Virus record (IMG/VR): IMGVR_UViG_3300034066_001286
Location: 1-38,249 of that record
Source of the DNA: a virus
Reading direction: 5' to 3' (one strand)
Length of the DNA stretch: 38,249 nucleotides
The translations under genes were made by a program, and so were the position numbers. Positions 2,123-6,730 of this stretch are shown in pieces; position 1 is the stretch's first letter, and each line of letters begins with the position of its first letter. The notes beneath the pieces were generated by a model. The model was not told the origin of the DNA, made no database searches, and saw nothing but the letters and a program-made list of their open reading frames with translations.

Positions 2123-2524
2123 ATGACAAAACCTCTCGCAGTCTTTTCCACCCGCGACCTCAAGCTAGCCACGATTCTTTTGACGCTCGGCTTCGAGCCT
2201 GAGAACCCCGCCGCTCCCGCCACGCGCATTCGCCGTGATTCCGGCGACGAGACGACGGTCTTCCACTTCCTCGCCAACCATCCCACCAGCGGACAGCAGG
2301 CCAACCAGGTCATGGAGTGGTTCCGCGACGCCGACATTTTCCTCGAGAAAAACCCCGAGCACCCGGTGGCCTACATCCTCGCCGCGCTCAAGAACCGCGA
2401 CACGCTCGTCAGTGTCGTCAAAGCGACCCCGCGCCAGCTCGTCTTCGAGCGCAACGGGAAAATCGTCTCGATCTCCGAGAACGCCACCGAAGCCGACAAG
2501 AAGCGGTTCGCCAAATTTCTATGA
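2123..2524 (+). CDS. Tail-region protein upstream of the chaperone, DUF5659-like
   Basis: A 133-residue protein starting ATG 2123. Its N-terminus (FSTRDLKLATILLTLGFE) resembles, from memory, the small DUF5659-type domain; no function is known for that family. Residues about 50-130 are Lys/Arg-rich and mostly helical. It overlaps the next gene as ATGA at 2521-2524. The -1 frame is open from 2317 through to 2934, so a frameshift here could also fuse it to the next protein, but I see no canonical slippery heptamer in the overlap. It may be a first tail-assembly factor. Confidence 0.55.
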   Translation: MTKPLAVFSTRDLKLATILLTLGFEPENPAAPATRIRRDSGDETTVFHFLANHPTSGQQANQVMEWFRDADIFLEKNPEHPVAYILAALKNRDTLVSVVKATPRQLVFERNGKIVSISENATEADKKRFAKFL

Positions 2525-2934
2525 AAAAAAACAACGACAAATCCACCACGAACGAAACCCTCGAAACCGACGACGAAGTCCTCCGCGAGCAAGCCATGAC
2601 CAGCGGCCCGCAAAAACTCTCCCGTTGGGAGCTCCGCCCCACCGCCGCGCTCGAAATCTCCTGGATGCAGCGCAACAAAATCCTCACGACCGACATGGAC
2701 ATCATGTGGCGCGCCTCCGGCTTCGGCTTCATCCACGGCGCACCCAAGGCCAGCGTCCGCGCCGTCGTGAACGACTTCCCCCGATTCGCCGCTGCCGTCG
2801 ATGACTGGATGGAAAAACAATCTCCTTCTGCCCAAGAGATCGCCGACCTGCAAAGCCTCTGCCTCGAGCGGACGAACGAATATTTTGCCAGCTACAGCAG
2901 TCAGCGCGGCGCCAAGGATTCGTCGGGAAACTAA
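2521..2934 (+). CDS. Tail assembly chaperone, short form (gpG-like)
   Basis: A 137-residue, mostly helical protein starting at ATG 2521 within the stop of its neighbour. It lies one gene before the tape measure region, where lambda-type phages encode gpG, the chaperone that coats the tape measure during tail assembly. The last two codons before the TAA stop are GGA AAC, forming with the preceding G the slippery heptamer GGGAAAC (2925-2931). That arrangement, not sequence similarity, is the main reason for the call. The longer product is described under 2521-3155. Confidence 0.75.
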   Translation: MKKNNDKSTTNETLETDDEVLREQAMTSGPQKLSRWELRPTAALEISWMQRNKILTTDMDIMWRASGFGFIHGAPKASVRAVVNDFPRFAAAVDDWMEKQSPSAQEIADLQSLCLERTNEYFASYSSQRGAKDSSGN

Positions 2935-3155
2935 ACAGCCCCGGCTGGCTCGCGAGCTATGTCTACCGCATCGCCCGAATCACCGGCTGGGGCTACAGAG
3001 AGATTTTGGAAGACCTCCCGTTCGCGGCCGGCCTTCAAATCCTCCACGCCGACGACTTCGCGCACGGGCGAAAGCGAGTCTGGGGACGAAACAACCGAGC
3101 GACCGATTTTGACTCCCTCGCAGCCATAGAAGCCGCTTTCGAGAACCTGCACTGA
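2521..3155 (+). CDS. Tail assembly chaperone, -1 frameshift form (gpGT-like)
   Basis: If ribosomes slip back one base on GGGAAAC, reading continues at CTA 2931 for 74 more codons to TGA 3153-3155, giving a 211-residue fusion. The extension has no ATG, GTG or TTG start that would give a full product, yet reads as plausible protein (SPGWLASYVYRIARITGWGY and on to FENLH) and ends one base before the next gene's ATG at 3157. This matches the conserved gpG/gpGT arrangement in siphophages, where the T extension recruits tube subunits. Small hairpins follow the site (2936-2947 and 2948-2957) and might stimulate slipping. Confidence 0.8.
2925..2931 (+). other. Programmed -1 ribosomal frameshift site GGGAAAC
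   Basis: In the upstream frame the codons are TCG GGA AAC TAA, so the heptamer is in the correct X XXY YYZ phase (G GGA AAC) and the next codon is the stop. Slipping by one re-pairs the two tRNAs with GGG and AAA. A 5-bp hairpin CAGCC/GGCTG (2936-2940 with 2943-2947) and the palindrome GCTCGCGAGC (2948-2957) lie just downstream. Confidence 0.8.
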
Positions 3156-3156
3156 G

Positions 3157-3954
3157 ATGCCCAAAATCAAATTCGAAAACCTCAAGTTCGAGCAGATCAT
3201 GTCGGACTACGCGACGATTCGTGAGACCACGATCCCCGACGCCGTCCACATGAATGCTCGGCTCTTGTGTGCCGAATTTGCCCGGCGCACGCAGGCTTTC
3301 GGAAAAGATGAAAAGGTAGGCACCGAGCGCGTGCGAAAGGACATTTCAAACATCATCAAGCCACCAGTCTATTTCCTGCAATTCCTCGGGAAAACTCAAA
3401 GCGAGCGATTGAAAAAAAGCCTCACCAAGAATTTTCAAGCGAGAAAGTGGACCGAGCTCAAATCCACCCTTGCCGCTGTCCGGATGGGGTCCGATGCGTT
3501 CACGGTAGCGGAGTCCGACGACTACGCAGGCATCCACCGAGATAACCGGAATTCCAAGACCGGCCGCGCATTTAAGCGCCCGAAGAAGTTCTACCTAGCA
3601 GCCGATTCCACCTCGCTTTTCAACTACATCAAAGAGCGACAGCAAAAGGTCGGATATGCCAAAGCAGGCTGGGCCGAGTGCGCGCTGCAACTTAAGAAAG
3701 TCATCTCCCGCTCGCAGACCTACGATTTTGAAAAGTGGTGGCTCCGTAATAAACCCGGCACCGGGTCCGTGCAGGACAACACCAGCAACATGTTCAGGCC
3801 TACCGTCACGCTTACAAACTCACTCCCGTGGGCCGACAGCGTCCTCCGTTACACCGAGCAGCTCAAAGGCGCGGAAATTGTCTCTAGCAAAATGAAAAAG
3901 CAAATGGAGAAGATTTTGAAAAAGCGCCAAACCAAACTCCAGGAGGCCGCGTAA
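3157..3954 (+). CDS. Tail-region protein of unknown function
   Basis: A 265-residue basic protein starting ATG 3157, one base after the stop of the chaperone extension. It contains many Lys and Arg residues and a C-terminal helical stretch dense in Lys (SKMKKQMEKILKKRQTKLQ). I recognise no domain. Lying between tail chaperone and tape measure it is probably a minor tail or tail-tip assembly protein. The gene is slightly richer in A and T than its neighbours. Confidence 0.6.
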   Translation: MPKIKFENLKFEQIMSDYATIRETTIPDAVHMNARLLCAEFARRTQAFGKDEKVGTERVRKDISNIIKPPVYFLQFLGKTQSERLKKSLTKNFQARKWTELKSTLAAVRMGSDAFTVAESDDYAGIHRDNRNSKTGRAFKRPKKFYLAADSTSLFNYIKERQQKVGYAKAGWAECALQLKKVISRSQTYDFEKWWLRNKPGTGSVQDNTSNMFRPTVTLTNSLPWADSVLRYTEQLKGAEIVSSKMKKQMEKILKKRQTKLQEAA

Positions 3955-3958
3955 CGCC

Positions 3959-6730
3959 ATGGCTGATGTCTCAGTAGAATTCGGAGCTAAGGATGTCGGG
4001 CTGGAAGATAGCCTGAAAAAAATCCAGAACGAGATGCAGAGCCTCGAGGATAAGGTCACGAGCGGCGAGCTCTCTTTCGAGGAATTGGAATCCACGATGA
4101 AGCGCCTCAGCCAAGTCGATCGCCTCGAGAAGCAACTCCAAGCCATCGGCGAAAAATCTGACGGAGCTTCCAAACAAGTTGATACGCTCAATAAAGAAAT
4201 CAAAACAGCAGGCGACAAATCCTCTGAAGCGGGAGGCATCTTTGACGAATCATTTCAAAAAATTTCAGGCGCGATAACGCTTGGGAATATCGCGGCAGAA
4301 GGGTTTCAGAAAATCGTGGAACTCGCTTTCGACGCCGCAACCAAAGTCGTTGAAGGCTTCTCCGATGCGCTCGACCTTGGCGGGCGACTTAACGAGTTGT
4401 CCCAACGCACCGGAGAAGCCTCAGGCACATTGCTCGTGCTTGAGACCGCGTTTAAAAACTCGGGCCTCGAGGCTGACCAAGTCGGAACGGCCATAAACAA
4501 ACTGCAAAATTTTATGGTGGACGCCGCCGATGAGGGAAGTCGGCAGGCTAATGTCATGGACGATCTCGGCATCTCCATGGCCGATTTGAAAGGCAAGACA
4601 CCTACCGAGCAGATGGAGGTGTTTGCCGATAAAATTGCCGGCATAGAAGACCCGACCGAACGGGCTGCCGCAGCCAGTGAAGTTTTCGGAGAAAAACTTG
4701 GAGGAAAACTGCTCCCTCTTTTTACCGACTTTAACGGAAACCTGGACGACGCTCGTGATAAAGTTGGTTCCCTTGAGGAAGTCATGAATGAAAATGCGGC
4801 CACTTTTGATTCGGCCGCCGAGACCATCGAGGCTATAAAAGGCAAGATGGCCGCATTCGCCGCCGGAGTTTTGAGCGAGACGATCCCAGCTCTCGAGGAT
4901 TTGGGCAAAGAAATGGAGCAAGTCGATGCGGCCGGCCTTGGTCAAGATGTGGGGGAGGTTTTGGCGCCAGGTCTTGAGAAATTTTCCTATTTTTTAATCG
5001 GTGTAAATGAAGACCTTAAAGAACTGATCGATCTGTTTGATGTATCAAAAGAGCCATCAAATGCTTTTGAATCTGTCATTAAAACTATTGTTGATACAAT
5101 ATCGGAATTTAGCGATGAGATGCAAAAAACCATTAATTTCATCTCTCCGATGGATGATTTATTTAATGCCTTGGAACAAAAAGGTAGAGATGCCGCCGCG
5201 TCTCAAGATGATCTGTCGGATTCCTTGGATAAGACAGGCAAAAATGCCAGCGATTCAAGCTCTTCGATTCAGACTGCTTCTGATGCCGTTGAAGCCCTCG
5301 GTGAAAAATCTGATTCTTCCAAAACATCTCTCGAGAGCATCGGGAAATCTGCCACAGAAGCCGGAGAATCTTTGGATTCTGCATTTTCACTTACAGGAGA
5401 TTACAACGCAAACATCGAAGGACTCTCTTCAACCTTTAGCGATTTAAACGACAAAGCTTTTGAAAATGTAAACTACTTGGAGGAAGGTAAGGATTTAAGC
5501 TACCAACAAAACCAAGAAGCCGAACAATTAGGATTTAATTTAGGCGAGAACAATTCCCAGCTAGAGATCACGAAAGGCCTATACGACGAGATCAAGCCGC
5601 AAGTCGAAGAAATTACAGAGGCGGAACAAACTCGCCTGGATAACAACAAATCCCTCGTCGAACTCGAGACTGACATTAACGAAGCCAAAGCGAGCGGAAA
5701 TTTAGAATTAGTAAAAACTCTTGAATCGCAGAAAAAAGAAATAGAAAACAAACAAGAGATCAAGAAGCTCACCGAGGAATATCAGAAAACTCTCGGCGTG
5801 AATGCCGACGAAGCCGCCCGACTGGCCACTAATTTTGTCGAAGCCAAAGATGCCGCCGCCGAGATCGAAAACAGAGATGTCGTCATCACGGTCACGACGG
5901 ACATCGACGATTCAACATGGAAAGACCTGCTTGCTGAACTTTCAGCAAATTCAAATCCGGAAGCCATTGAAGTCGCCCTAGAAATCACCGGAAAAGACAC
6001 TCTCCAAGAAGCCTACCAGACGCTCGAAGACATGGAGACCATCAATAAAAATTTTGAAGCGGCGATGGAAGTCTCGGGAGCCAGCAGCCTCGAGGAGGTT
6101 AAGCAAAACCTCGAAGGCATCCCCACTGAGGCGCAAAGGCAGCTCGCTCTCGAGATCACTGGCGAAGACGACCTCGACGACGCGATCAAAAAACTGGATG
6201 ATTTCAAAGGGACTAAGACCGCCAAAGCCCTGCTTGAAAAGGAAGGCTTTGAAAATGTCGATGAGCTTCAAGACGCGCTCGAAGGCATTGCCGGCGAAAA
6301 GCGCACGGAAATGATCGTCGAAGCCCTCGGCGTGGAAGACGCCGAAGCAGCCAGAGACGCTATCGACGCCATCCTTAATGCCGACAGCAAAAAGGCCACC
6401 ATCACCGCCGACGCCGATGTCTCGACCGCCGAGCAAAAAATCGACGACCTCTCCCAAAAAACCGCCACCATCCCCCTCGACGGAGACACCGCCCCACTAA
6501 AGACTGCCCTGGATGAGTTTACCAGCACCGCCCAAAAACTCAACCTCGACGCCAGCGAGGCGATCAGCAATATCCGCGCCGACCTCGAGAAGCCCATCAA
6601 ACTCGACCTCGAGGGCGCAACCAGCTCCGGCGGTGACTCCGGCGATGGCGGCCTCACCGACCTCGTCGAAAGTATCAAATCCCTCCTCGAAAAAATCGAA
6701 CCCAAACTCCCAGTCGCCGCTCTCGTATGA
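3959..6730 (+). CDS. Tail tape measure protein
   Basis: A 923-residue protein starting ATG 3959, the longest in the window, acidic and predicted largely coiled coil. Residues about 1-90 are heptad-rich; about 90-320 resemble the conserved tape-measure region (the TERAAAASEVFGEKLGGKLL segment is typical). The middle, about residues 340-600, is encoded by markedly AT-rich DNA (about 4980-5780). Residues 645-806 contain tandem repeats of about 28-29 residues. Tape measures set tail length; at the usual 0.15 nm per residue this suggests about 140 nm (inference). No muralytic domain is evident. The next gene overlaps its stop. Confidence 0.9.
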   Translation: MADVSVEFGAKDVGLEDSLKKIQNEMQSLEDKVTSGELSFEELESTMKRLSQVDRLEKQLQAIGEKSDGASKQVDTLNKEIKTAGDKSSEAGGIFDESFQKISGAITLGNIAAEGFQKIVELAFDAATKVVEGFSDALDLGGRLNELSQRTGEASGTLLVLETAFKNSGLEADQVGTAINKLQNFMVDAADEGSRQANVMDDLGISMADLKGKTPTEQMEVFADKIAGIEDPTERAAAASEVFGEKLGGKLLPLFTDFNGNLDDARDKVGSLEEVMNENAATFDSAAETIEAIKGKMAAFAAGVLSETIPALEDLGKEMEQVDAAGLGQDVGEVLAPGLEKFSYFLIGVNEDLKELIDLFDVSKEPSNAFESVIKTIVDTISEFSDEMQKTINFISPMDDLFNALEQKGRDAAASQDDLSDSLDKTGKNASDSSSSIQTASDAVEALGEKSDSSKTSLESIGKSATEAGESLDSAFSLTGDYNANIEGLSSTFSDLNDKAFENVNYLEEGKDLSYQQNQEAEQLGFNLGENNSQLEITKGLYDEIKPQVEEITEAEQTRLDNNKSLVELETDINEAKASGNLELVKTLESQKKEIENKQEIKKLTEEYQKTLGVNADEAARLATNFVEAKDAAAEIENRDVVITVTTDIDDSTWKDLLAELSANSNPEAIEVALEITGKDTLQEAYQTLEDMETINKNFEAAMEVSGASSLEEVKQNLEGIPTEAQRQLALEITGEDDLDDAIKKLDDFKGTKTAKALLEKEGFENVDELQDALEGIAGEKRTEMIVEALGVEDAEAARDAIDAILNADSKKATITADADVSTAEQKIDDLSQKTATIPLDGDTAPLKTALDEFTSTAQKLNLDASEAISNIRADLEKPIKLDLEGATSSGGDSGDGGLTDLVESIKSLLEKIEPKLPVAALV
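5891..6376 (+). repeat. Tandem 28-29-residue repeats in the tape measure
   Basis: Successive units begin TDIDDSTWKDLL, LEITGKDTLQEA, MEVSGASSLEEV, LEITGEDDLDDA, EKEGFENVDELQ and EALGVEDAEAAR. Each is followed by an amphipathic helix and the spacing is about 28-29 residues (84-87 bp). The third and fifth G-D/E-L positions are the best conserved. Confidence 0.7.

Follow-up and report, generated by a model that had tools for sequence, protein, structure and literature searches.

Comparative evidence for a programmed −1 frameshift and a downstream RNA stem in a likely tail chaperone gene pair of uncultured phages

INTRODUCTION

Does a short gene in the tail operon of an uncultured virus encode one protein, or two nested proteins that share an N-terminal part and differ by a −1 frameshift near its 3′ end? 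The gene lies in a 38,249-nucleotide stretch of DNA, positions 1 to 38,249 of the IMG/VR record IMGVR_UViG_3300034066_001286, which is referred to below as the window. All coordinates are those of the window, and all features named are on the + strand. In tailed phages, the short form of such a pair binds the tape measure protein, and the long form uses its T domain to bind the tail tube subunit (PMC5009743). The prototype is gpG/gpGT of phage lambda (Levin 1993; Xu, Hendrix and Duda 2004, 2013, and 2014, as cited in PMC5009743). An earlier note, made from the window sequence alone, had proposed a pair of this type. The reading that we favor, and hold to be quite probable as a whole, is that nested proteins are made here by programmed −1 frameshifting with a stem that pauses the ribosome, and that they act as tail chaperones by analogy with lambda gpG/gpGT.

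RESULTS

The short product (G-like) is encoded at 2521 to 2934, has 137 amino acids, and terminates at TAA (2932 to 2934). The 3′ end of this open reading frame (ORF) reads TCG GGA AAC TAA in its own frame, so that the heptamer G GGA AAC (2925 to 2931) adjoins the 0-frame stop on its 5′ side. Direct reading of the sequence confirmed the exact slippery phase and the coordinates given in the earlier note. After a −1 slip, the ribosome would read GGG AAA and then CTA AAC AGC CCC, continuing through a T-like extension (2931 to 3155) of 74 codons to TGA at 3153 to 3155. The joined product has 211 residues plus the stop sign (212 characters; about 212 amino acids). The ATG of the next gene, at 3157, is one base beyond this TGA, as had been noted. 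Upstream, the extension frame is open to a TGA at 2802, and no ATG, GTG, or TTG occurs in it between that point and the junction; one in-frame TTG, at 3006 (codon 26), is inside the extension. A gene caller that depends on start codons does not see the extension.

How much weight these features deserve depends on their background frequency. In-phase XXXYYYZ heptamers are rare, with 13 among 3,946 codon pairs (13 genes of the window), and one placed directly before a stop codon is thus unlikely a priori. Open −1 frames of 74 codons are common in this GC-rich genome (685 of 3,023), so the open frame by itself proves little.

Relatives were found through the extension among IMG/VR viral contigs and two Verrucomicrobia metagenome-assembled genome (MAG) contigs, giving 111 distinct sites. 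In 111 of 111, a shift heptamer in the same phase is followed at once by the 0-frame stop codon, and the −1 frame is open. The earlier note had named loss of the heptamer or of the open frame in relatives as evidence against its proposal; such loss was seen in 0 of 111. The heptamer was GGGAAAC in 84 sequences, CCCAAAC in 16, GGGGGAG in 10, and GGGAAAG in 1; the canonical X XXY YYZ pattern seen in phase in the window is therefore shared by 101 of the 111, the other 10 having GGGGGAG. On a FastTree tree that left out the stem part of the extension and the codons of the heptamer itself, the heptamer changed at least 7 times, each time to another shift-type site. The residues encoded there change along with it (Gly-Asn, Pro-Asn, Gly-Lys, and Gly-Glu), which indicates that the nucleotide pattern rather than the peptide is kept.

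The two halves of the locus were also compared for selection. Among 30 distinct close sequences, pN/pS of the extension was 0.25 in the −1 frame versus 1.3 to 1.6 in the other two frames, which also contain stops, and the short-form gene had a pN/pS of 0.30 in its own frame. The alignment of relatives likewise showed a conserved coding −1 frame, as is expected of programmed frameshifting. In divergent relatives, identity was 56 to 97% for the extension versus 30 to 88% for the short protein (23 representatives for the latter). By these comparisons of sequences, purifying selection acts on the extension in the −1 frame and in neither of the other two. Together with the shift site, stop, and open frame kept in 111 of 111 relatives, this selection removes chance as an explanation, and programmed −1 frameshifting, as the earlier note had claimed, is well supported by comparative evidence.

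The same data bear on two other accounts of the open −1 frame. One ORF could have been split in two by an indel from sequencing or assembly or by gene decay, and nothing beyond the frame change itself speaks for this. Across independent metagenomes and the two MAG contigs, the same junction recurs in 111 distinct sequences, with selection on both sides of it; conservation already refutes this account, to which we assign a negligible probability. Alternatively, ribosomes that terminate at the TAA could re-initiate, or translation could be coupled across it, so that the extension would be a gene in its own right. Phage operons commonly show re-initiation close to stop codons, and the TTG at 3006 offers an in-frame start; at 81 of 111 sites, however, the extension frame has no upstream ATG, GTG, or TTG, and in several relatives it closes 6 to 24 nucleotides upstream, which makes separate initiation a poor explanation. 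In most relatives, the extension either has its first start at codon 26, past much of the conserved part, or has none, and a separate gene leaves the conserved heptamer unexplained. We regard a separate gene as very improbable. Stop readthrough was rejected, as the conserved frame is −1 and not 0, and transcriptional slippage is unlikely given the lack of a long homopolymer.

Programmed frameshift sites commonly, but not obligatorily, have a stimulatory structure downstream. The earlier note did not see one; a 12-bp RNA stem is nevertheless predicted, with a 5′ arm (AGCCCCGGCUGG) at 2937 to 2948, 5 nucleotides past the heptamer, that pairs with a 3′ arm (CCGGCUGGGGCU) at 2983 to 2994. Folding of 2932 to 2995 gave a minimum free energy (MFE) of −31.6 kcal/mol (z −3.7; 0 of 200 shuffles as low), and 6 of 3,183 64-nucleotide windows of the genome folded as well (lowest 0.2%). 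Between 9 and 12 of the 12 stem pairs were retained at 111 of 111 sites. In 27 representatives, standard pairs occupied 96.9% of stem cells, and sliding the partner out of register lowered whole-structure pairing from 84.6% to 26 to 49%. An inner helix in the loop was poorly conserved (66% of cells paired). Rfam searches returned nothing relevant.

It is conceivable that the SPGW/TGWG protein motifs create this stem as a by-product and that it is no stimulator. The arms do fall in conserved codons. When synonymous codons were re-drawn in 27 sequences, however, 7.4 to 9.7 pairs were obtained versus 11 to 12 observed, and the real MFE was below that of the synonymous redraws in 27 of 27 (mean z −2.6). 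Synonymous identity averaged 0.79 at stem codons versus 0.60 elsewhere, and residues of the same protein provide controls. Synonymous identity is 0.97 at the invariant Pro4, a stem codon kept as CCC, whereas it is 0.28 at the equally invariant Pro30; Gly5 and Gly21 in the stem have 0.81 to 0.82 versus 0.34 to 0.42 for Gly34 and Gly46 outside it, and the stem codon Gly19 has just 0.59. Double changes in the stem included G-C to A-U at the Gly5/Asn5 pair and G-C to C-G in one sequence, but they were few and phylogenetically clustered, with counts not clearly above shuffles, and the tree held too few independent evolutionary pairs for a covariation test. Covariation in the alignment is thus supportive rather than decisive, which leaves the by-product account some room; on balance we consider that account rather unlikely. 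We propose that the stem is a frameshift stimulator, its stimulatory effect being putative.

Two other candidate stimulators were dropped. A pseudoknot between the loop motif CTCGC and GCGAG after the stem would need 3 nucleotides to span the 12-bp stem, which they cannot, and the pairing is absent from the window, as judged by eye. The other candidate was an upstream Shine-Dalgarno element, AAGGA at about 2914, which is not kept among the relatives.

In the proposed mechanism, most ribosomes would read G GGA AAC TAA and release the 137-amino-acid protein. A fraction would be paused by the 12-bp stem starting 5 nucleotides downstream and move back by one base while the two tRNAs re-pair on GGG and AAA; these ribosomes would add the 74-residue C-terminal domain to give about 212 amino acids. 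By analogy with lambda gpG/gpGT, the short form would coat the tape measure as the tail assembles, and the long form would recruit the tail tube subunit. Both the slippage itself and its frequency are what we infer. The mechanism is classical, and the conserved stem makes the system a variant of it; the stem and the protein families are new here, the novelty of the stem for tail chaperone frameshifts being provisional and judged from open-licence papers.

The neighboring genes suggest what the pair may do. A 122-amino-acid gene (1690 to 2058) occupies the place of the major tail tube protein, to which it is assigned by position only, and a 133-amino-acid gene (2123 to 2524), directly upstream of the pair, has a conserved place and an ATGA overlap with the G start; neither matched a Pfam or PHROGs family. 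Downstream, the tape measure protein (3959 to 6730; 923 amino acids) matched PHROG tail length tape measure families (best E value, 2e-12), with a PhageMin_Tail match below the cut-off. The earlier note had put the shift site just before the tape measure. That detail needs correction: a 265-amino-acid gene (3157 to 3954) intervenes, and the tape measure lies downstream of it. Seven relatives, including both MAG contigs, had the same gene order, namely, a gene of about 130 amino acids, the short form, the extension, a 214- to 325-amino-acid counterpart of the intervening gene, and a large ORF of 704 to 891 amino acids. The large ORF of one MAG contig (L176) matched tape measure PHROGs. Neither the 265-amino-acid protein nor its counterparts had a family match, and all relatives checked had such a gene ahead of the large tape-measure ORF.

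The host is probably a member of the Verrucomicrobiota, as suggested by the two MAG contigs and one distant isolate match. The tape measure of the window had weak tblastn matches to Verrucomicrobia phage P8625 and Idiomarinaceae phage 1N2-2.

Family and fold searches were run on both halves. Pfam and PHROG scans, with single sequences and over alignments, gave nothing significant; PDB profile searches gave no match, and neither half matched INPHARED phages. AlphaFold2 models of both halves (pLDDT about 79) were searched with Foldseek against BFVD, and that of the short form also against PDB, with no match at E ≤ 0.001. Weaker fold matches, none of them significant and all of them leads only, were to YqbN (3klu, E value of 8), to two Myoviridae sp. 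ct8ME27 proteins, one per half, and to two Streptomyces phage chaperones. Likeness to a known chaperone family in sequence or fold, which is not obligatory for the role, was thus not found with Pfam, PHROG, or PDB. Known tail chaperones are themselves very diverse. By these searches, both protein families are undescribed in the libraries searched.

DISCUSSION

Operon position, nested products, and size make a gpG/gpGT-like role likely, by analogy. The gpG/gpGT identity put forward in the earlier note is plausible in view of the location among tail genes ahead of the tape measure, the nested pair of products, and the size of each; homology does not show it, as searches of Pfam, PHROG, and PDB gave no match and fold searches gave none that was significant. 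The frameshift could be real and the pair could instead be other short and long tail or connector proteins of the same operon, as the lack of homology to any chaperone family or fold and the extra conserved gene before the tape measure would allow. Against this, the pair lies upstream of the tape measure in a tail operon in every relative checked, and its nested architecture and sizes fit gpG/gpGT (PMC5009743). In addition, what appears to be an unannotated in-phase A_AAA_AAG with an open −1 frame immediately precedes the tape measure of phage 1N2-2. We give the non-chaperone account a small share of the probability and prefer a tail chaperone pair.

Comparison with lambda gpG/gpGT shows both likeness and difference. 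In each case, a short gene that precedes the tape measure gene carries a G_GGA_AA-type heptamer close to its 3′ end, and a −1 slip there would yield short and long nested products. Unlike lambda, the window has an extra 265-amino-acid gene before the tape measure, a stop codon that abuts the heptamer, and a conserved downstream stem, and no similarity in sequence or fold was found between the two pairs. The reported g-t shift site of the haloarchaeal siphovirus HCTV-1 is G_GGA_AAC (Sencilo 2013, as cited in PMC5009743). It is the same heptamer as in the window, in a virus with an archaeal host.

For the stem, the closest parallel is E. coli dnaX, where, as in the window, a slippery heptamer is followed after a few nucleotides by a stem of about 11 to 12 bp. 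The dnaX site, A_AAA_AAG, has an upstream Shine-Dalgarno stimulator as well; no such element is conserved in the window group, and the genes are unrelated. The dnaX stem has 11 bp, and certain tailed-phage shift sites seem to be without stimulatory signals (PMC5009743).

A stem at this place suggests stimulation of some tail chaperone frameshifts, so that their ratio of short to long form may differ from that of lambda, in which the long form is roughly 1 in 30. A stronger version, which we offer tentatively and think doubtful, is a dnaX-like, stem-driven chaperone frameshift with a long-form share far above that of lambda, in families unrelated to known chaperones and with a third co-conserved protein encoded between the pair and the tape measure. 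Frameshifting in a tail chaperone cluster elsewhere was measured at 6 to 7% (PMC3711429). If the chaperone role is correct, these observations extend tail-chaperone frameshifting to an uncultured phage group probably infecting Verrucomicrobiota, in which both protein families were previously unannotated.

Phages with weakly related tape measures were examined for comparable modules. In Idiomarinaceae phage 1N2-2 (NC_025439), a short stretch of the tape measure is related to that of the window (E value, 1e-7), and the major tail protein is followed by a 131-amino-acid gene in which A_AAA_AAG lies in phase and the −1 frame stays open to the tape measure start. Unlike in the window, no further gene separates this one from the tape measure, and the G and T parts have no detectable similarity to those of the window. 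At ORF 20 of this phage (L336:3520-3773, NC_025439), the −1 frame crosses a gap left in the annotation, which makes an unannotated −1 frameshift extension probable there. Verrucomicrobia phage P8625 is a siphovirus (PMC4642752), and inspection for a comparable frameshift module showed none.

Three further observations concern sequence variation in the group. The first 26 residues of the short protein (window 2521 to 2598) are identical or almost identical to those of clade L037-L045, with which the identity is otherwise just about 40 to 50%, which suggests mosaic exchange within the short-form gene.

In the clade comprising L037-L045, L172, and L173, the heptamer is GGGGGAG before TAG. The P-site glycine codon would re-pair on GGG, and the A site would need GAG on GGA, with a G-U pair at the middle position. 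By the standard rule this is a weaker, less canonical shift site, and the clade is a natural test of shift-site rules. Altogether, 111 natural variants of the shift site and stem are now at hand.

Extension codons 59 to 61 (GAT TTT GAC, window 3105 to 3113) had a synonymous identity of 100% in the 72 distinct loci keeping the residue, with far lower values at neighboring codons. These codons sit about 45 nucleotides before the start of the next gene, and the frameshift does not explain their conservation. The motif TTGAC within them was invariant in all 21 divergent sequences printed.
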